This document shows positions 4,790 to 27,564 of a DNA stretch of 27,564 bases, piece by piece. The stretch is from positions 1 through 27,564 of the forward strand of contig LT635981.1 of NCBI GenBank assembly GCA_900128565.1, given 5' to 3'. Under the pieces are notes generated by a model. The model saw nothing but the letters and a program-made list of their open reading frames with translations, made no database searches and was not told the DNA's origin. This DNA is from Stramenopiles sp. TOSAG23-6 (taxonomy: Eukaryota > Sar). Each line of letters opens with the position of its first letter. Position 1 is the stretch's first letter. A program made the position numbers and the translations under genes.

Positions 4790-7700
4790 TCATTTTACCT
4801 CGTCCGTTTTGATCTTCTCATCTGCCAATTTTAAAAGGGCTGCGTTAAGCACGTCACACCATTTGGTGACAGTTCCAGGAACATTTTCCTTCCACTTTGT
4901 CAATGCGCCATTTTTATACGTTATTTCTAAGACCCTCTCTTTATCTTTTTTCTTTATCTGAAGCATGTGCAAGACAGCATATCTACCACGTACTTTTACA
5001 CGATTATCATCTATCTCTTTATAGTACACATACGATCCATCAAACTGGAACGCGCATTTCCTCCAAAACATACCGCGCTTTCGTTTAAATACAGATACTA
5101 GAATACAATCTGCATCCTTTGGTGGGTTCAACATCGCAGCATAATCGTCACTCTTTCTTCCATTCATTGTATATAAATTAGGTGGCGCAGGAGCAGCAAC
5201 ACCTGGTTCAGATGACACTGTATCACTCGTATCACTAGTATACTTCGATGTCCCATTTTTTGCTGAAGGACCTAATTTTATATTTGTACGTAATGCATCA
5301 CACCAGGATTCTGCTTCTTGATTGCTTGTGGCATGTAAAACTTTTGTTTCCTTTCCTTTAGAGTTGGACCAAGTGATATAGATTTTATAACCACCATGAA
5401 TTTTGGAAAAATATTTCAAAAAAAAAGTCGTTAGGTACAAAATTTACTATAAAAAAATAAATTCGAATTTGAAAAAAAATAAAACATACATGGACTTCTA
5501 CATTATTAATAGTATGCACAACGTATCGGCCTTTTGGAGGTGAATATGGATCTAACGCACAAACTTCATTTTTGTAATAATCAAGAAAACTATTTTTAAT
5601 TCCCATGACAAAGTAATACTTTGTCCACTTTCGACGATGTCTTTTTTTTAAATATCCTTTCTTTGGTACTGTACCTTCTGGGATCGCATTCATAGCATTC
5701 ATTGCAGAGCAAGATTTTTTACGAACTAATGAATCTGTTGCCGTTAATTCTGTATTTCCAATCCACTTCATTGGAACTTCGGTAGTATTATTTGAAGTTT
5801 CTTGTTCGTAATTAAAATATGGTATCCATTCAAGCTTTAGTCGAATTGTTCCTTTTGTTTTCTTCTTATACCCACGTGACAATTGGCGCCAAAAATCGTG
5901 AGTATCATGGGGAGGAATATTGTTCAAAGGGATTTCACATGAACCTAGGAAATCATATCTACTATCAGCATTTGTGAGAACTTCATCATAATCAAATACA
6001 TCAACTTTGAGAGTTGCATTTGCCAAATCTCTAATAAGAAATTCAGTATCTTCATTCCATTCAGGTTTTAGACTATCCCAAATGACACGTGTAGTATATG
6101 TAGCTTTTGAATCATTCCCAGTAATCGACATTACAACAAAAGCATCTGATTTAGAAATTGTGTCAGCATTATGCAAATCATTCGCTTGTACAATAGTAAC
6201 TTTCAGTAAACCATCAACATCGGATGTGATTTCATCGTCATGTTTTGCATTTACAGGAGCAGAGCCACTAAAATCAATATCATATGTATTCGGCCAAACA
6301 ATCATACCAACAAGAGTTTCATGTAATATGCTTTGAATATATTCTTTGACAAGAGGTAATTCAGTAAAACAACTCGTTCTTGCAGTTAAAAAGGAAATAT
6401 CAAAATCAATTTCCGGAGCGGCCATAAACCCTAAAGCAACTGCACCAAAACCAGGCATTACAGTATCACGTTTACCAAACTTAATTCGTAATATTCCTTT
6501 CATACTTATACCAGAAACGCCAAACTTCAGAGTTACCAGATCTCCAGGAGTATCAAGAGCAAAAGTAATTTCCATGCCATCGTGTGAAATCCAATCAAAA
6601 TCTACATCAAGGATTGGATCTGGATGCTCGTGAGCTTCACATTGATTCTGTGAAAAACTTTTCAATCCGCCAAAATAAAATGGAACTCGACCAAAATCAC
6701 ACATTTCAAGTCGCAATGTTCCTAGAAAACTCGGAAGACTTTTGTTAATATTTGCAGATTCAATTCCACTTCGCACGGAATCGTTGAGACCATACCGTAT
6801 AAATGGCCATAATTGACGTACGACATTATTCAGCCAATCACAATGCTCCCAATCCGCATATTTTACGTACATTGGTAAGTGTTGCCAAAATTGTTCAACC
6901 TCCTCTCTGTTTTTTAAAGTTTGACTCAGATCAAAAATACTATCCGCCAACAACAATGGTTTCTGTTCACTGTTATGTATAAAGTGACCATCTCGAATAC
7001 ACCAATCATTCGTGAGTCCTAAATACAACAACAAAAAGGAAAAAAGAAGAGGCCACGCAAGGGACATATTCATGTATCCAAAGACTGAGGAGCATACATA
7101 AAATAGAACAGAATATCCAAATTTAGGCTGATACGTCCTCACACTCGACGCTTCTCGAATGTGTGTACATTTCAACACTATTACAGGGAGACAACTTAGC
7201 AAAGTCAGGCATACATAACATACATTAGGAGGCAATGAAAATCCAGGCATGAAGCTATATTCATTCAGAAAGTTATATTTGGATGAATTAAATGAGCATT
7301 TGAGGACTTTACCTAAAAAATAGAAAGGCAATGTGCTAAATGAAAAACTATGGTCAAGTATCACAGGCTTCAATTTCTCAATAACAGTAGCATGATCAAA
7401 GCTCTTGTTACTTTTTAGCTCATTATTCAGTAACTTGTGTTGAATACTGCTTGGAGCCGATTGTACCTCTATTTTGTACGAAATATTCCTTTGTTTACTC
7501 ATACCTAATATAGAAGTTTGTCTTGTATTATCAAATGATAATTCTATTACACCATCACAAGAATGATAATTTAGCCAAGTTCCATGACATTGTTTCAAAG
7601 AATCAGAGGTGACAATGTATTGTGAAAAAAAAAATACTTAAAAAAATCGTTAGGTATGAAATTTCGTATGAAAAAAAAAAAATTAAATTAGAAATTCATA

Positions 7701-8902
7701 TAAAACGTACATATATAACGGCTTCACTGTAATATATTTAGACTGAGAAGTATTAGGTCTAAATGTAATTTTAAAATATATACTTTTCCCATTCAGTTCG
7801 AAAAAAGAATAATTCATACGTTTCCCAGTTGGAATTTTCACTTCAGTGGTTGAAGTTTCACCTGCATTGATAATCAAATTATGGTCTTCTTTGACTTCTG
7901 AATATGCAAAATGCTCGGCATTTGGATCGTCTAGGATACTATCAATTTTCCATCCGCCTACCCAGCCACGATTATTTACATTCACAGGATGAACAGATTG
8001 TAATAATGAAGCTAAAACTCGTCTGGAATGATATAGTATGAAAAATATTTCAAATTTGATATTTGTTAACATTGAATTATCTATGAAAAAAAAAATTTGA
8101 AAAAATGTAAACCCTAACCCTAATGAAAACATACATGAAGTGAGTAGGCAAAAACAAATTCTTTTGTAGAATAATTATGCCAACATATTACAACATTACC
8201 ATCAGCTTTAACTTGTAACCAATCAAAATGTGGAGGTTGCTCAGCGGATAAAGTACACTTTGGTTTTATTTTGGTTTCTTTTGAATGCTGTGAAAACACG
8301 ACGCCATTCATTTTGTTTTTATCTTCACTTACCGATTTGAACTTAACTGAAAGGTGACAATAATATTGTTTAGCAAACGTTCGGAAATAAATCACATCAC
8401 CCTTTTTAACGATTATTGTCTCTCTGTGACGAGTATGCTTCACAAGCTTACAATCTGGGTTTTTTTTAATGCGTGTTCCTATAGTTTTGGAGTCGGATGC
8501 TACTTTATCATTAAATATATCACAGTGGTCAGTCAACTCAATTTCTTCTTTCAGCTCTGCATTTTCTAATACCGCAGTTTCTACTGGGAAAACACACTGT
8601 GTACAAAGCTTGATGATATCTTCCCACCTTTGATATTGTTCTTCATTCTTACAACCAAGTCTGAAGTTTTTTTTGTTGTCAAGCGTTTTTGCAACTATTT
8701 CAATTATACTTTTATCAGAGGATATTGCCTTATCTAGTACTCGGACAGAAGAGAGATCAAATGCCTTTATAATTTCAAATTTTTCTTCATCTTTGAATAA
8801 ACTTAAGTGGAAGCCGTATACAGCACAATACACCTTTTTCCAAGCACCAACACCTGCACTGTCATCGTAATACTTCAACCAGCCAGAATGATGTTTTTCC
8901 AT
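4790..8902 (-). CDS. PH-GOLD-GOLD-TM-SMP-C2-PH-PH membrane-contact-site protein, four exons
   Basis: Exons are 8902-8135, 8027-7711, 7614-5490 and 5395-4790, giving about 1271 residues. PH1 lies at residues 5-95 (HSGWLKYY ... YQRWEDIIKLC). Two GOLD-like beta domains follow: the first around 165-260, the second around 300-410, ending DGVIELSFDNTRQ, the typical last GOLD strands. Hydrophobic stretches around residues 480-560 (VCYVCLTLLSCLPVIVL; LLFSFLLLYLGL) look like an ER hairpin. An SMP domain comes next (WLNNVVRQLWPFIRYGLN ... MPGFGAVALGFMAAPEIDFD), then C2 (LLKVTIVQANDLHNAD ... LKPEWNEDTEFLIRD), then two PH domains, the first interrupted by intron 3. SMP domains carry lipids between membranes in extended synaptotagmins, TMEM24 and yeast tricalbins; C2 and PH bind acidic lipids. 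The protein probably tethers ER to another membrane and moves lipid. GOLD with SMP is unusual. All three introns end in CAT. Confidence 0.85.
5396..5489 (-). other. non-canonical intron 3 (GT...CAT), introner-like
   Basis: The 94-nt intron starts GTATGTTTTATTT and ends AAAATTCAT. Removing it joins ...NNVEVH to GGYKIYITW and restores the middle PH domain. The only AG between the borders is at ATAG, and splicing there would put TAA first in the required frame. It carries TTTTGTACCTAACGAC, a T-run and GAAATATTTTT, all shared with the other copies. CATG is repeated at both borders. Confidence 0.85.
7615..7710 (-). other. non-canonical intron 2 (GT...CAT), introner-like
   Basis: The 96-nt intron starts GTACGTTTTATATG and ends CACAATACAT. 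It contains ATACCTAACGATTTTTTT. Phase is 2: AT plus T makes an Ile codon and the frame continues into TSDSLKQCHG. The only nearby AG (TTTAAG) leaves the wrong frame. The border repeat is only AT, so GT-AT, TG-CA and AT-AC cuts all give the same mRNA. Confidence 0.75.
8028..8134 (-). other. non-canonical intron 1 (GT...CAT) with telo-repeat insert
   Basis: The 107-nt intron starts GTATGTTTTCATTAGGG and ends ACTATATCAT. It joins ...FAYSLH to SRRVLASLL in phase 0. None of the AGs (ATTAG, CATAG, CCAG) restores the frame. The branch-like element is GTTAACAAA instead of TACCTAAC, but GAAATATTTTTC before the end is shared. TCAT is repeated at both borders. A TTAGGG-type telo-repeat lies just after the 5' border. 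Confidence 0.75.
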
Positions 8903-16385: not shown

Positions 16386-16789
16386 TATTGTTGGTTATCA
16401 TTACACAGCTGCCATAAATGTCACTGAAATGTCACTGAAATGTCACATTTCAATTCAATTTGCAACAACACCAAACTATACAGGAGTATCCATAGTGGTT
16501 ACTACCTACCATTGTGGTAAGCATGATGCCATTGTGGCATCAGTGTATATATCATGAATGATGAAAGTTGTATTGTGTACTTTTTTTTCTGCAGAGAGTA
16601 TTGCTAGAGTGAGAGACTCTAAGTAGAGTAAGCTGATGTAAACACATTTATTTGCTACTATTGACTTTTTTTTTGAGAACATCAAGAACAGGTTTGTACA
16701 AAAAAAATTTAATGAAACCGTTTCGTTACTTATTATTTTTGTAGTCTAGTACGAAACAAAAGTGTCAAAATCTTTATTCTTTTAATAAA
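16386..16789. other. intergenic region with small hairpin, upstream of the MYCBPAP-PGK gene
   Basis: About 400 bp with no open frame of note. It contains a tandem TGTCACTGAAA repeat (near 16427-16450) and a hairpin GATGCCA-TTG-TGGCATC (near 16524-16540), which may be the edge of the decayed repeat region. The last 100 bp are AT-rich and run into the ATG at 16790 (AATAAAATGACAG). Confidence 0.5.
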
Positions 16790-19700
16790 ATGACAGAGCC
16801 ACCTCCACAAGAAAACAATCTAGATGTACCACCAGGAGACAATCCCGAAGTGGATGCTCCTTCTGAAGCTATTGGGGAGAATAATGTCTCTCAACAAGAA
16901 AATGGACAGGAATTAAACGTTACAACTGAAAATGTGGAGGAGGAGGAAGAGGATAAGGTTGAAGTAGTTTCACAAGACAACGAAACAAACCAAAAGGATG
17001 AAACACTAAAAGTCGTCACCGAGCCTGTTGTGAAGCCCCGACGTAAGTTTTCAGTAAGATCGCCACGTAAGAAAGATGAAGACATAGATAAAACAAATCG
17101 TCGTAAATTTGTTGTTGTTCGAAGTGCACGTAAAGGTGAACAAGTCAATACAAATCAAACCTCACCTTCTAAAGGCATTCGAAGAAACAAAAACAGCGGT
17201 GAAGTAGTTTCACATACTATCTTAGGCAAACCCAAACATTTTGAAAACTCTATCCGGTTGCAAAATGGTGATGAAGATACAACTTCAGTAGATATATTAG
17301 TGAGTTCGATTAGAAATCGAGCAGTCGGAGTAAACTTGATGAAAAACCGACTAACTAAAGCTCGCAGTGCACTAAAAGAAGATGATCCTCTTGTTCTTCT
17401 CAAACGTGAGCACAAATCACGGTCCCGTAGACTTTCTAGTTTGAAGAAAATTGCAGATGAGTCCAATGAAAAAGAGCAAAAAAATCATCAGCGAAAGTTA
17501 GCAAATATGTTGCCTCATCATCGTCTAGCGCACGATCGAGAATCTCGTACTCTCCAAATGTGGAAAGAGCGTCAAAAAGACTGGACAAAGTGGAAAGGCG
17601 ATACTGCAAAACGAGTAGGAAAAGACGTTGCAGATCTGGTAGTTTCACGCGCAGAAGATTATCGTGAAATGCTTGAAGAATACGCTCTCGTTCATAAATC
17701 AATGCCAACTGCTGAAAAACAGGGTTCAGATTTTTGGATGATGAGTTTACGAGGTGATGGTACACGCTATGTACCAGTAGGAAATATTTTCTCTGGTTTA
17801 TTTTGTCCAATAAAAGATGACAATGCGAATGTACCAATTATTATTCGACGTCCAGGGATGAAGCAGTCTTCGGCATCTTGGCGTGACTCTCATCAGCTTC
17901 AGCGTCGAAAACGACAGGTAGCTAAAAAAATGCAAACATTGAGACCTCATGCTGTTGAACAGAGCCACGCGGATGGTCTTATTGTATCAGGTTGTAATCT
18001 CTTTGATTGGGCATTAAACTCTACATCTACATTCTATGAAAATGCTGCTGTAGAACAGGCTTCGACAAGGGAAAGTTCTTTATATGTAGATCTTGATGGT
18101 GATGGAATCGATGATGTTACTGGCGAAACAATCCCTTCTGATTATTTAGAAGGACCACAATTGTGTCTTCGTATCATCGGTGAAAATGGAAAAGTGTGTA
18201 GTCAACATAGCACAAGCGATCCTAAATCATTACTAAATATCATTCTAGAAACAACTATTAATGAGTCAGTAGTGTCCAACATACAAGTAGAAAATACTGG
18301 AAGCTGTGCTCTATACTATGAATGGGGGAAAGATTACGAAAATAATGCTGAAAGCAATTTAATTCCAAATGAGCAAGAGCATGTATTTTCGTGTGCTATG
18401 CGTAAGGGTGTTATTTTACCAGGTCAAACACAAGATACGGCGATTGTTTTTGCAACAACAAAAGCGGGAATATTTAGGGATTCATGGAAATTCATTACAA
18501 ATCCCAATGCAAACAGTCTTAGTAAGGTAAAATTCTCTTTCACAGGTATTGCAAAGGATATTGATAAATCAGAAATACATAAACGTCTTGGAGAAGTTGT
18601 GAATAAACGCATATCTCAATCAAGCTCAAATCAAATGGATGATTCTCTTCTAAGTCGTGTTCAAACTCCTAAATCATTAGACATTGTGGGTAGTGAAAAG
18701 AGTATTTTGCATCGAGATATCTTTGAAGCTCACAATCCTGGTCTGCATTATCTTCCTCGTTACTATGCTAAATTTGAGGCATATGCCTTGAAATTGTTTT
18801 CAATTTTGAGAGTGCAGCGTAAACATGCTGAATGGGATGGATCTGTTGATACCCTGCGTGACTTACTGAATACTCTTGAGAAAAATAAAAAGATTGATGC
18901 AGCATATATTGAGATGATGCGAAGTGATGTCGAAACATTGGTACTTTGCGCATCAAAAAGACCTGCTGATTTACCTTCATTTTATCCTATGAAGCAGAAA
19001 ATAGCTGAGATTGATGATACAGATGTTGCTGAAGATGGTGTAGAAGACGAAGAAGAAGACGAAGATGATGTAGAAGACGAAGCCGAAGCCGAAGATGACG
19101 CAGAAGGCAAAGCTGATGATGCTGTAGAAGGCGAAGCTGATGATGTAGAAGTTAAAGATGAAGATAATGTAGAAAGTGGAGAAAATGAAGAAAAGGAGGC
19201 AGAATGTGAAGTTGATGGTGAAGACGCTGTAGCATCTGAAAATGATAAAAATGATGAAAATCAGAATACGGATACAATTGCTCCTAATATCACGGACGAG
19301 ATACAACAAAAACAGTTTAGCCCAGAAGTAACAATTGTGTCCCATGGCTCTATACTCAAGAAGAGGACGATAAATCAGCTTACTCCTGATGAAGTTAATG
19401 GGAAGAATGTATTAATTCGAACTGACCTTAATGTAAAGTTTGAAGATGATGACGGCATCGCCCCGGAAGCACAAGGGAAAATTAGCAGAGCATGTAGAAG
19501 TGTAAAGACCGCATTGTCTCTAGGAGCAGCAAGAGTTTTACTTCTTACACATTTAGATCATTTGGGAAAAGCTGTTTCAGCCGCTTGTTTGAAAGATCCA
19601 CTCGAAGATGAACTTGAGGATGACGTTACCTTTATTAGCAATTCTGAAGATATTGTGTCATCTCTTGTAGATGATGACGAAGGAGNGATATATCTCCTAG

Positions 19701-21181
19701 AAAATATACAATTTCGTCCCGAAGATTGGAGATTATCACCAGAAGCAGTTCATGGAAGACCTGGACAAGACGAAAATCTTGCGCTACAAGATGTTGCTGG
19801 TACATATTCTGCAGTTGACTCTAGTGAAGAAGATGGAAACTGGTCTGTATTTTCTTACGGGCTGGCAATATCCCCCTCAGGTGAAAAAACAAAAGTTCGT
19901 AGAGCTAGTCGTGATCAACTTGTTCTTGACGGTGGTGGGGGCGTATTAAAACTTACATTGGGAAGACGAAATGTAGTCACGTCATTCAGGTGGTCCTCGA
20001 ACGATGTTGTATATGAACACACATCTAAAACTCCGGCTGCTATAAAATTGAAACATCCTTCATATATAGTAGAACCTGAGGAAGGCGAACCAATTTTATT
20101 AGATGAAGACTCTTTACCTCCAATACCAACACTGAAAGAAGCTAAGTTATTGGAGGAAGAATTATCCTCTATTTGTGATGTCTTTATCAACGATGCTTTA
20201 TCTATCTGCGGTGGGACATCTATCTCGTCTGTGATTCAACCTCAATCAAAAGGTCCTTGTGTGGCTGGTCATAGTATGGTACTTGAATTGAAACATGTTG
20301 CTGCACTTTTGGAGAAACCACGCGCACCACTGGTAGTTGTAGCTGGTGGTGAAGCCACACAGCAACGCGTACATATGGTTCGTGGATTACTTGCATCGGC
20401 ATCGCATGTACTTTTTGGTGGACAATTTGGTCTTGCGCTTCTCTTAGCCCAAAACTCGAGTAATGATGGATGTATAGGTGCAACAAAAGTAGATCATTCG
20501 AAGTCACATATTGCAATGAAGCATCTTTTGCTTGATGCTCGGCGACGTGGTGTAAGATTGTTGCTTCCTACCGATTTTGTTACTGGAGATGTTGAGACTA
20601 AATCATCTAAGGAAGCTATTGTATATGAAGGCGACACCGATGAAGTTTCATTCAGTGATATCGATGAAAATAGCTTTATATTAGATATTGGTCCCAACAC
20701 AACAGAATTATATACATCTATTATTCAATCAGCAGAATGTGTAGTTATTGTTGGAGGTTTAGGTGAATTACAGTATGATGATGCTGGCCGATGTGGAACA
20801 ACTGCAATACTTGACGCAGTATCTACTCTTACAGCTGCTGGGAAACCAACACTTGTAGCTGGGTGGGATATGGTAAATTTTGTGATAGATACAGGTTTGG
20901 AGGAGTCTTTGTCCTGTGTTAGTGATGCAGGATCTGCTATGATTAAACTGCTATCTGGACAATCTTTACCAGGTTTGACAGCAATACCAGAAATTTTAGA
21001 AGGCGAAGAATCAAATGCATTTGATTTCGCGACATCTGCACAGGATGGAATTGACGTGGGTGATGAAATTGGAGTAGAAACACAGGAAGAAGAAAATAAT
21101 GTTAATGAAGGAGAAGATAATGATAATGGGAAAGAAAATAATGTGAATGAAGAAGAAGAAAATGTTGATGTGAAAGAATAA
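16790..21181 (+). CDS. MYCBPAP-like ciliary protein fused to a degenerate phosphoglycerate kinase
   Basis: Single exon, 1463 residues, one undetermined base at 19686. Residues 1-150 are acidic, then basic and disordered. Residues about 220-620 match MYCBP-associated protein: a helix with RTLQMWKERQKDWTKWKG, EDYREMLEEYALVHKSMPTA, then GSDFWMMSLRGDGTRYVPVG, and an ASH/MSP-like beta domain (SNIQVENTGSCALYYEWGKD ... GQTQDTAIVFATTKAGIF). The Chlamydomonas homologue FAP147 belongs to the axonemal central apparatus. A Glu/Asp-rich linker (about 740-840) leads to a PGK fold (about 850-1405): NVLIRTDLNV near 874, LLENIQFRPE, FINDAL near 1131, VVVAGGEATQQRV near 1183, and a GPNTTELY/VVIVGG region. Key sites are lost: HLGRP is THLDHL, the AHR segment is SICGG, GGAK is GGEA and GGGDT is AGWDM. 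It is therefore probably a pseudoenzyme or scaffold. An insert of about 110 residues splits the N-terminal PGK half. Confidence 0.85.
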   Translation: MTEPPPQENNLDVPPGDNPEVDAPSEAIGENNVSQQENGQELNVTTENVEEEEEDKVEVVSQDNETNQKDETLKVVTEPVVKPRRKFSVRSPRKKDEDIDKTNRRKFVVVRSARKGEQVNTNQTSPSKGIRRNKNSGEVVSHTILGKPKHFENSIRLQNGDEDTTSVDILVSSIRNRAVGVNLMKNRLTKARSALKEDDPLVLLKREHKSRSRRLSSLKKIADESNEKEQKNHQRKLANMLPHHRLAHDRESRTLQMWKERQKDWTKWKGDTAKRVGKDVADLVVSRAEDYREMLEEYALVHKSMPTAEKQGSDFWMMSLRGDGTRYVPVGNIFSGLFCPIKDDNANVPIIIRRPGMKQSSASWRDSHQLQRRKRQVAKKMQTLRPHAVEQSHADGLIVSGCNLFDWALNSTSTFYENAAVEQASTRESSLYVDLDGDGIDDVTGETIPSDYLEGPQLCLRIIGENGKVCSQHSTSDPKSLLNIILETTINESVVSNIQVENTGSCALYYEWGKDYENNAESNLIPNEQEHVFSCAMRKGVILPGQTQDTAIVFATTKAGIFRDSWKFITNPNANSLSKVKFSFTGIAKDIDKSEIHKRLGEVVNKRISQSSSNQMDDSLLSRVQTPKSLDIVGSEKSILHRDIFEAHNPGLHYLPRYYAKFEAYALKLFSILRVQRKHAEWDGSVDTLRDLLNTLEKNKKIDAAYIEMMRSDVETLVLCASKRPADLPSFYPMKQKIAEIDDTDVAEDGVEDEEEDEDDVEDEAEAEDDAEGKADDAVEGEADDVEVKDEDNVESGENEEKEAECEVDGEDAVASENDKNDENQNTDTIAPNITDEIQQKQFSPEVTIVSHGSILKKRTINQLTPDEVNGKNVLIRTDLNVKFEDDDGIAPEAQGKISRACRSVKTALSLGAARVLLLTHLDHLGKAVSAACLKDPLEDELEDDVTFISNSEDIVSSLVDDDEGXIYLLENIQFRPEDWRLSPEAVHGRPGQDENLALQDVAGTYSAVDSSEEDGNWSVFSYGLAISPSGEKTKVRRASRDQLVLDGGGGVLKLTLGRRNVVTSFRWSSNDVVYEHTSKTPAAIKLKHPSYIVEPEEGEPILLDEDSLPPIPTLKEAKLLEEELSSICDVFINDALSICGGTSISSVIQPQSKGPCVAGHSMVLELKHVAALLEKPRAPLVVVAGGEATQQRVHMVRGLLASASHVLFGGQFGLALLLAQNSSNDGCIGATKVDHSKSHIAMKHLLLDARRRGVRLLLPTDFVTGDVETKSSKEAIVYEGDTDEVSFSDIDENSFILDIGPNTTELYTSIIQSAECVVIVGGLGELQYDDAGRCGTTAILDAVSTLTAAGKPTLVAGWDMVNFVIDTGLEESLSCVSDAGSAMIKLLSGQSLPGLTAIPEILEGEESNAFDFATSAQDGIDVGDEIGVETQEEENNVNEGEDNDNGKENNVNEEEENVDVKE

Positions 21182-26073: not shown

Positions 26074-27564
26074 ATGTTTGAGAAGAGTCTACATGACCTC
26101 GTCAAGGGTATACGTTCCCACAAACGCGACGTAAGTGGTTATATCGACAAGTGTTTGTCGGAAATTAAAGTTGAGTTGCGTACAACAAATCCAAAGCTCA
26201 AAGTTCAGGCTATTCAAAAGTTGGTATATTTACAAGTTCTCGGGTATAGTGCGAATTGGGCTTCTTTTCATGTAGTTGAGGTTATGGCCCAGCCCTTATT
26301 TAAGCATAAGCGTATGGGATATCTCGCAGCGGAGCAATGTTTCACCCCTCAAACAGATGTAATTCTACTGTGTACAAACTTACTTAAGAATCAGTTACAT
26401 GCTTCAAATCAATATGAAATAGGATTGGCAATAAGTTGCCTGTCAAATATTGTCACTAAAGATTTGGCGAGAGATCTTCTAGGAGATATAGTTGCCATGT
26501 TAAGTAGTACTAGACCATATATACGAAAGAAGGCCGTGCTAGTATTATATAAACTGTATCTTGCATACCCACAAGCCCTACGTCTATCATTCGAAAATTT
26601 AAAACAGAAACTTGAGGACGTCGATCCTTCAGTTGTTTCCTCTGCCGTTAATGTAATTTGCGAGTTATCGCGTAAAAACCCTAAAAATTATTTATCTTTG
26701 GCGCCACAGTTTTTCAAGTTACTATTAACATCTACAAATAATTGGATGCTTATTAAAGTTGTGAAACTACTTGGTGAGTTGGTGTCAGAAGAGCCTCGAT
26801 TAGCTCGGAAAATTTTACAGCCACTAGCACGTTTGATCAGAGCCACACCGGCAAAGTCTTTAATGTACGTTCTTATCGTGAAATTTCCACCTAAATTTTA
26901 TTTTTCATAGAAAATTTTGTACCTAACAAATTTCGAACGTAAAATATTTTGTAAAAATCATGTACGAATGTGTTCAAACTGTGACAACTTCCCTTAAATA
27001 TACAGTACGTCAAGATGGAAAACAAGCAAAAAATGTTGCTGAAATTGCTTCTCTTTGTATGGAAAAGTTGAAGGATTTCATTGAAGATCCTGATCAAAAC
27101 TTGAAATATTTAGGTTTGATTGGTTTAGCCAATTTGATGCGCTCCCATCCAAAATTAGTATCAAAGCATAAAAGTCTTGTCCTTGAATGTCTTGATGATG
27201 GTGACGTCACTATTCGTCTTAGAGCTTTAGAATTAGTGACTGGTATTGTAACAAAACGAAGTCTTCAAAATATTGTTGACAAATTAATGCAACATTTGAG
27301 CTGTGCTGAAGGTCAATATCGTGATGAATTGATTAGTAAGATTGTGTTTATTTGTAGTCGAAATAAGTATTCATTTGTTTTAGATTTTGCGTGGTATATT
27401 ACGATTCTTATAGATTTGGCGTATACAAAAGGAATGAAGCAAGGTGATCTTATCGCGGAACAATTAATTGATGTATGTTTTATTTTTTTGAAAATTTGAA
27501 TTTTGTTTTCGTACGAAATTTTGTACCTAACAATTTTTTTTAGATTTTTTTTTGAAATATTTTT
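26074..27564 (+). CDS. AP-3 adaptor complex delta subunit, N-terminal part (3' end outside window)
   Basis: The start is the ATG at 26074 (MFEKSLHDLVKGIRSHKRD); the open frame reaches further up only through a TTG. Exon 1 is 26074-26864, exon 2 is 26962-27472, and a further intron begins at 27473. The protein is the helical adaptin N-terminus: ELRTTNPKLKVQAIQKLVYL, QVLGYSANWASFHVVEVMAQ, RMGYLAAEQCF, then LSDLARDLLGDIV-like, RPYIRKKAVLVLYKLYLAYP and, over the intron, SLMYECVQTV. Exon 2 has DPDQNLKYLGLIGLANLMRS and DVTIRLRALELVTGIVTKRS, very close to AP-3 delta. AP-3 sorts cargo from endosomes or Golgi to lysosome-like organelles. The gene is truncated only by the window edge. Its intron has CAT at the 3' end, as in the contact-site gene. 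Confidence 0.93.
26865..26961 (+). other. non-canonical intron (GT...CAT) in AP-3 delta, introner-like
   Basis: The 97-nt intron starts GTACGTTCTTATCG and ends AAAAATCAT. Both borders share the 7-base direct repeat ATGTACG. Removing it gives SLMYECVQTV, the conserved adaptin sequence. The only AG (CATAG) would leave TAA in the needed frame. It carries the core TTTTGTACCTAACAAATTT. ACGTTC...GAAATTT near the 5' end can pair with AAATTTCGAACGT near the 3' end. Confidence 0.9.
27473..27564 (+). other. start of a further introner-like intron in AP-3 delta, cut by window end
   Basis: After ...EQLID the sequence turns to GTATGTTTTATTTTTTTG, contains ACGAAATTTTGTACCTAAC and GAAATATTTTT, and the open frame ends. 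It matches intron 3 of the contact-site gene over most of its length. The 3' border is outside the window; in the other copies it is CAT about 10-15 nt after GAAATATTTTT. Confidence 0.8.

Follow-up and report, generated by a model that had tools for sequence, protein, structure and literature searches.

The stretch of DNA analysed here (the window: 27,564 nt of contig LT635981.1, assembly GCA_900128565.1, from Stramenopiles sp. TOSAG23-6, an uncultured marine protist of very small size) carries on its minus strand a gene at 4790-8902 interrupted by three short introns, which combine a GT donor and a branch-like site with a 3' end that reads CAT or TAT (YAT) in place of AG. These introns belong to a repeat family found across the genome, lying in sense orientation within genes, with a two-letter repeat at their borders and a 3' border at YAT that is well supported by reading frame and by homology. 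We consider it probable that they are introners, i.e., transposon-like introns inserted repeatedly into genes, and that they are removed by a U2-type spliceosome that would accept YAT.

The host gene, its three introns and their family

The gene and its introns are arranged as follows:

4790..8902, minus strand: host gene, exons 8902-8135, 8030-7711, 7614-5490 and 5395-4790, interrupted by three introners
8031..8134, minus strand: introner copy 1, 104 nt, GTATGTTTT...GTTAAC...GAAATATTTTTCATACTATAT, end CTATAT (TAT)
7615..7710, minus strand: introner copy 2, 96 nt, GTACGTTTT...TACCTAAC...CACAATACAT, end ATACAT
5396..5489, minus strand: introner copy 3, 94 nt, GTATGTTTT...TACCTAAC...GAAATATTTTTCCAAAATTCAT, end ATTCAT

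Excision of the three introns yields a single open frame of 1271 aa when the second exon is taken from 8027, and the frame gains one residue if this exon begins at 8030. The host protein contains the Pfam domains C2 (1.2e-22), PH (2.7e-15) and SMP_LBD, a lipid transfer domain (2.3e-8), and a weak PH_10 match at residues 1055-1105 covers the junction of intron 5396-5489 (residue 1070). Its full-length ortholog P0123 (EukProt) is 38% identical, in an alignment that crosses the exon borders.

All three introns start with GTATGTTTT or GTACGTTTT, contain a (C/T)TAAC site and a T-run, and end in CAT or TAT. These motifs had been reported in a preliminary description of the window and are indeed present on the minus strand, and its observation of non-AG intron ends is confirmed. 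It had assigned a CAT end to all three introns, which stands for 5396-5489 and 7615-7710, whereas the third ends in TAT at 8031 and not in CAT at 8028. An intron in the gene of the AP-3 complex subunit delta (26865-26961), named there as a further case, proved to be a fourth copy of the same architecture. Introner copy 1 also includes a brief run resembling telomere repeats (window 8110-8123; plus-strand sequence AACCCTAACCCTAA), and similar TTAGGG pieces occur in loci L014 and L022.

The family was searched in the assembly, which is partial and comprises 8.03 Mb in 408 contigs, the window being contig 31. By using the pattern GTAYGTTTTN{20,50}TACCTAAC, 1122 matches were obtained (575 + 547) against 0 for the reversed pattern, while the full pattern including CAT gave 355 against 42 for its reversed control, which excludes chance as the source of the resemblance. 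A variant of the pattern with GTACATTTT gave 28 matches and its control 0. The genome counts are inflated, since some contigs mirror themselves or copy each other. Mirror-image or copied contigs include C2, C4, C13/C14, C33, C37 and C58 of the assembly (G000), and are expected of amplified single-cell DNA.

In the layout of the family, GTAYGTTTT precedes a T-rich stretch and then TACCTAAC; some 34 nt further on, (C/T)AT borders the exon. The introners are AT-rich, with a median length of 92 nt, and the 87 introns compared, those consistent in the frame test described below, show a median pairwise identity of 0.73 over aligned columns. Their length is not a multiple of three in 62 copies, and the distance from branch to end has a median of 34 nt and a range of 28-63. 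A GTAYRT donor and a YTAAC branch are present in 87/87, although both belonged to the search pattern. Two styles are visible, GTAT..CCAAAATACAT and GTAC..CACAATACAT. In unselected sequence, sense orientation was observed for 24/24 copies with strong coding flanks and for 2/3 with weak ones, one being antisense. Tandem copies may also exist, as at L010 (~7574-7678), where an introner begins right after the apparent 3' end of another (TTTTCACAATATAT), and a single gene may carry a copy every few hundred bases, ten donor-plus-branch matches being found on one strand of contig C13 (1-3500).

The 3' border by reading frame and homology

For the frame test, a codon score was trained on extended open frames from this same DNA and used to read the frame on either side of every copy. 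Before counting, copies were discarded if their flanks were short or their profile scores weak; of the 115 that were read, 97 had a clear frame on both sides, and the other 18 stand outside this set. An intron running from GT to YAT keeps the frame in 87/97 copies, a shift by 1 fitting 4 and a shift by 2 fitting 6. The 87 frame-consistent introns end in AT in 79 cases and in AG in one. These values are biased in that the copies were found by donor and branch, the profile used to score the end leans towards AT, and a pattern ending in CAT had selected 68 of the loci tested (L001-L008, L029-L048 and L050-L089). Some of the end calls are doubtful (e.g., L013:2127 and L071:346), and one intron (L088), which has a single end but two candidate donors, was entered twice both among the 87 and among the 21 rows considered below. 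Because the end profile favours AT, the test was repeated with the last three letters excluded from end-finding, on contigs not picked by the CAT pattern. In this less biased repeat 34 copies were found, and 22 of the 28 confident ones fit. Their ends were CAT in 11, TAT in 5, CTT in 2, and CAA, TTT, CTA and TGA in one each, with no AG.

A homology scan was carried out by sliding the 3' border across 75 to 95 positions and scoring each product against homologues. At all five junctions scanned, which belong to three genes, YAT gave the highest score, with a tie in one case. Against P0123, copy 1 scanned with long exons scored 218 at 8031, 208 at 8028 and 92 at the best AG end; with short exons no clear end emerged. 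For copy 2, 7615 was best (231), the next position, three nt on, reached 230, and the best AG end 105. For copy 3, a score of 259 was reached both at 5396 and 3 nt upstream of it, and the best AG end scored 218. In the AP-3 scan the CAT end at 26961 was best against 4/4 homologues tried. The fifth junction lies in a segment of L030 (1-660) whose protein we recognized as ATP synthase beta-like, and here too the CAT end was best against both relatives. In these two relatives (84 and 88% identity) the segment lacks the interruption; they are known from proteins only, and the empty site could mean gain or loss. The L030 protein has a C-terminal extension common to two metagenomic relatives without the intron. 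In other conserved genes, one junction in a fragment of glucosamine-6-phosphate deaminase (GNPDA; L085) and two in a ClpB fragment (L042) are gap-free against solved proteins in the alignments shown.

These results bear directly on whether the introns could be ordinary GT-AG introns with the AG located elsewhere, which we regard as extremely unlikely. An AG does lie near the border in some copies, and the intron at L076 ends in ACAG. However, the first AG past the branch keeps the frame in 37/97 copies, near the one-third level expected by chance, and the best AG end scores lower at each of the five scanned junctions, by 41 points (intron 5396-5489) to more than 200 (AP-3). Moreover, an AG at least 12 nt past the branch and ahead of YAT would break the frame in 7/87 copies, and in L013:5225 and L026:1464 such a frame-breaking AG stands 5 nt ahead of the intron end. 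Ab initio intron scans (all loci; AG-ending introns in 222 kb made up of the long contigs and the window, ~198 kb of it unique) returned no credible GT-AG intron, in lists that by eye consisted of introners, intergenic or antisense false matches and noise; these scans are insensitive and were judged by eye, and the absence of GT-AG introns is therefore not established. One GT-AG candidate, L023:8253, was rejected, since joining its exons leaves stops in each of the three frames.

The frame test, the homology scans and the uninterrupted homologues together support YAT as the putative 3' splice site of these introns in the host organism, and argue against the sequencing error that had been set against it.

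For the AP-3 gene, the 3' border can also be compared with a deposited gene model. Two copies are located in this gene:

26865..26961, plus strand: first introner of the AP-3 delta gene, 97 nt, GTACGTTCT..TACCTAAC..AATCAT
27473..27564, plus strand: second AP-3 introner, with GTATGTTTT and TACCTAAC present and its 3' end beyond the window end

Splicing of the first copy at YAT creates the junction SLM|YEC, and YEC is found in 12/12 aligned homologues besides the deposited protein P0001. This protein, labelled GSMAST32.ASY1.ANO1.66.1 in EukProt, is the nearest AP-3 delta protein and by eye the same as that of the window in the alignment, save for stretches missing or altered in the model. From this likeness, the source of the window is probably a MAST-3 single-cell assembly of the kind described by Seeleuthner et al. 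(2018; PMC5778133), or one very near to it. At the intron a conserved stretch is broken in P0001, which reads KSLMYKILYLTNFERKIFLRQDGK where the YAT-spliced protein has KSLMYECVQTVTTSLKYTVRQDGK, and three stretches coded without interruption in the window are dropped. Such errors would fit a gene predictor restricted to GT-AG, and they suggest that gene models built by the GT-AG rule are likely wrong in this group.

The border repeat and the exact cut

The last letters of the upstream exon tend to be repeated at the end of the intron. At position -1 the two ends match in 81/87 copies against 78.3 expected from shuffles (p=0.006), and at -2 in 66/87 against 59.0, a value that 0/2000 shuffles reached. 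The excess over shuffles is confined to these two positions, and the repeated letters are mostly AT. In 4/10 copies with an exon ending in TT the intron also ends in TT, compared with 0/77 of the others (p=9e-5). The repeat looks like a two-letter target site duplication, on evidence that is modest because the site is mostly AT.

In ciliates, eliminated sequences are bordered by short repeats, which the two-letter repeat described here resembles. Removal at the DNA level, as in these organisms, or an origin of the copies in pseudogenes or assembly errors, is nonetheless very unlikely in our judgement. The copies with strong coding flanks are all in sense orientation, and the copies have a donor and a branch in common, in the right order (though both were in the search pattern). 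Error is unlikely because many copies sit in conserved genes.

The shared dinucleotide also makes an alternative register conceivable, in which the cut would lie 1-2 nt upstream on both sides, defining an AT..AC (or NN..AC) intron with an exon that keeps its AT and mostly the same mRNA. The exon ends in AT in 59/87 copies, and in 58 of these 59 the intron also ends in AT, so that both readings give an identical mRNA and AT-AC and GT-AT are indistinguishable there. The 21 informative rows are those with an intron ending in AT and an exon ending otherwise. Under the AT-AC register, a stop codon arises in 2/21 of them (L039 and L066), and a ClpB position that is V in the three alignments shown becomes I. 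Furthermore, the change is synonymous in 6 of the 21 rows, compared with 7.7% of 952 control draws (p=0.004), as if the exon copy were the coding one. The GT-AT register is preferred because of these stops, the ClpB substitution and the excess of synonymous rows. U12-type introns have the donor RTATCCTT (motif ATCCTT) and a branch near the 3' end, for which 34 nt is far; the donor GTAYGTTTT lacks the U12 motif, and the branch-to-end distances given above do not agree with this class. The AT-AC reading thus appears distinctly unlikely, and the GT-to-YAT intron is retained as the probable unit of excision.

Removal of the introners and comparison with known systems

The explanation we favour would operate as follows. 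Short, AT-rich, transposon-like introns would have been inserted repeatedly into the genes of a MAST-3-like marine stramenopile, each copy supplying its own donor of U2 type (GTAYGT) together with a branch site like that of yeast, TACCTAAC. Insertion would take place at a dinucleotide, mostly AT, which ends up at both borders and for that reason would make the 3' border read (C/T)AT. A U2-type spliceosome would then excise the stretch from GT to YAT, about 34 nt past the branch and without an AG, some factor tolerating U in place of G at the last intron position. The family is repeated across the genome and is probably mobile. For one 30-base piece, no exact match was found in viral contigs. 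More tentatively, a single introner family, accounting for almost every intron, may have driven a change of the 3' splice signal in the whole intron set of this lineage, whose U2 spliceosome would keep a standard donor and branch and use (C/T)AT instead of AG; we see this broader proposal as a serious possibility, though a doubtful one.

Parts of a spliceosome are encoded in the assembly. PRP8 is present, and a 150-residue piece of it, which we take to include the stretch known as the alpha-finger, aligns gap-free to human PRP8 with 139/150 residues identical by our own count; PRP8 had been proposed as a place to look for residues that read the AG, and in this piece there is no striking change. 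Slu7 is present in part, and CCCH and U2AF-large-like matches were seen; U2AF35 was not identified. No match to Prp18 was found in the partial assembly, with an uninformative control. Since the assembly is partial, the missing Prp18, like the missing small nuclear RNAs (snRNAs) mentioned below, is weak evidence.

Several points weigh against the proposed excision by a spliceosome that accepts YAT. The evidence for it comes from genomic sequence and computation. Ten of the 97 confident copies misfit in the frame test, some of them with apparently mis-called ends and others unexplained (L006:1914, L014:5421 and L048:639). The intron of L076 (minus strand, donor at 412) is the sole one among the 87 with an AG end (ACAATACAG), which is possibly a YAT mutated towards AG. 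Because of the shared dinucleotide, the cut is ambiguous by 1-2 nt in most copies. The U1, U2, U5 and U6 snRNAs were not found in the partial 8 Mb assembly, in a search for which the control genomes were uninformative. Finally, the intron ends pair above shuffles, in which they resemble introns with a proposed spliceosome-free route.

Such a route, proposed for the nonconventional introns of euglenids and hemistasiid diplonemids, would have the two ends of the intron pair with each other. When the first and the last 10 nt of the introns are compared, the expected pairs have a mean of 2.44, and dinucleotide shuffles one of 0.48; the short border repeat is a further point of likeness. Yet the pairing is weak, with a median of 1.31 expected pairs, and in four folded copies from the window the ends are unpaired. 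As possible terminal inverted repeats, ATGTAT and ATACAT look complementary, but over ~6 bp only. In addition, the GTAYGT donor and the TACCTAAC branch are signals of U2 introns, and the PRP8 and partial Slu7 matches indicate that spliceosome parts exist. Spliceosome-free removal is accordingly held to be unlikely, and excision by a U2-type spliceosome to be probable.

Few signals in eukaryotes are as constant as the AG that closes an intron. Large exceptions to it are few, and those compared here alter the 5' end too. In Amoebophrya, the introners described are repeated transposon-like introns with non-canonical ends and direct repeats over the exon-intron border, and U1 snRNA was undetected (Farhat et al., 2021; PMC7789003). 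The present family is similar in its repeated non-canonical introns, its border repeats and the undetected U1. However, the Amoebophrya ends are described as varying without a clear signature, and their introner subset as having 3-5 nt direct and 8-20 nt inverted repeats (PMC7789003), while our family has a uniform donor and branch, mostly YAT ends and a repeat of ~2 nt. Introners are also known from diverse eukaryotes, some with target duplications or inverted ends and with splice sites partly derived from the target (Gozashti et al., 2022; PMC9860276). The passages compared report rare GC and GA donors around core GY/AG nucleotides, in contrast to the YAT end seen here, and the main text of that article mentions neither MAST nor stramenopile.

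Another example is the chordate Fritillaria, in which 95% of introns are reported as non-GT-AG, a U2-type spliceosome is used, and a duplicated, diverged U2AF was proposed to read the non-canonical 3' ends (Soo et al., 2026; PMC13326754). Its 5' sites are described as non-canonical too, whereas here the 5' end stays GT. In hemistasiid diplonemids most introns are reported to lack GT-AG and the intron ends can pair, with 5' sites that mismatch U1 (PMC12621601), unlike the donor GTAYGT of the introners. The family described here has the many similar intron-like copies genome-wide that characterize introners, and departs from GT-AG introns in its 3' end. In a literature search that covered part of the literature, no description of such introns was found. 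Introners are already known, and what differs here is that a U2-like donor and branch occur together with a (C/T)AT end, and that two letters are repeated at the borders.

If the proposed explanation is true, the splicing machinery of the host tolerates an intron end other than AG. A family that joins an ordinary donor and branch to a (C/T)AT end would isolate the question of what, in the second splicing step, requires the G, and mobile elements would have a route that could shift the splice code.

Regarding the remaining features, a partial eukaryotic SSU rRNA was found at L009:1-564 when 12 sources were scanned, and is presumably stramenopile-like, as judged by eye. In the window itself, positions 16745-21181 hold an open frame of 1478 residues, with a long charged region followed by a C-terminal part which we take, by eye, to resemble phosphoglycerate kinase.

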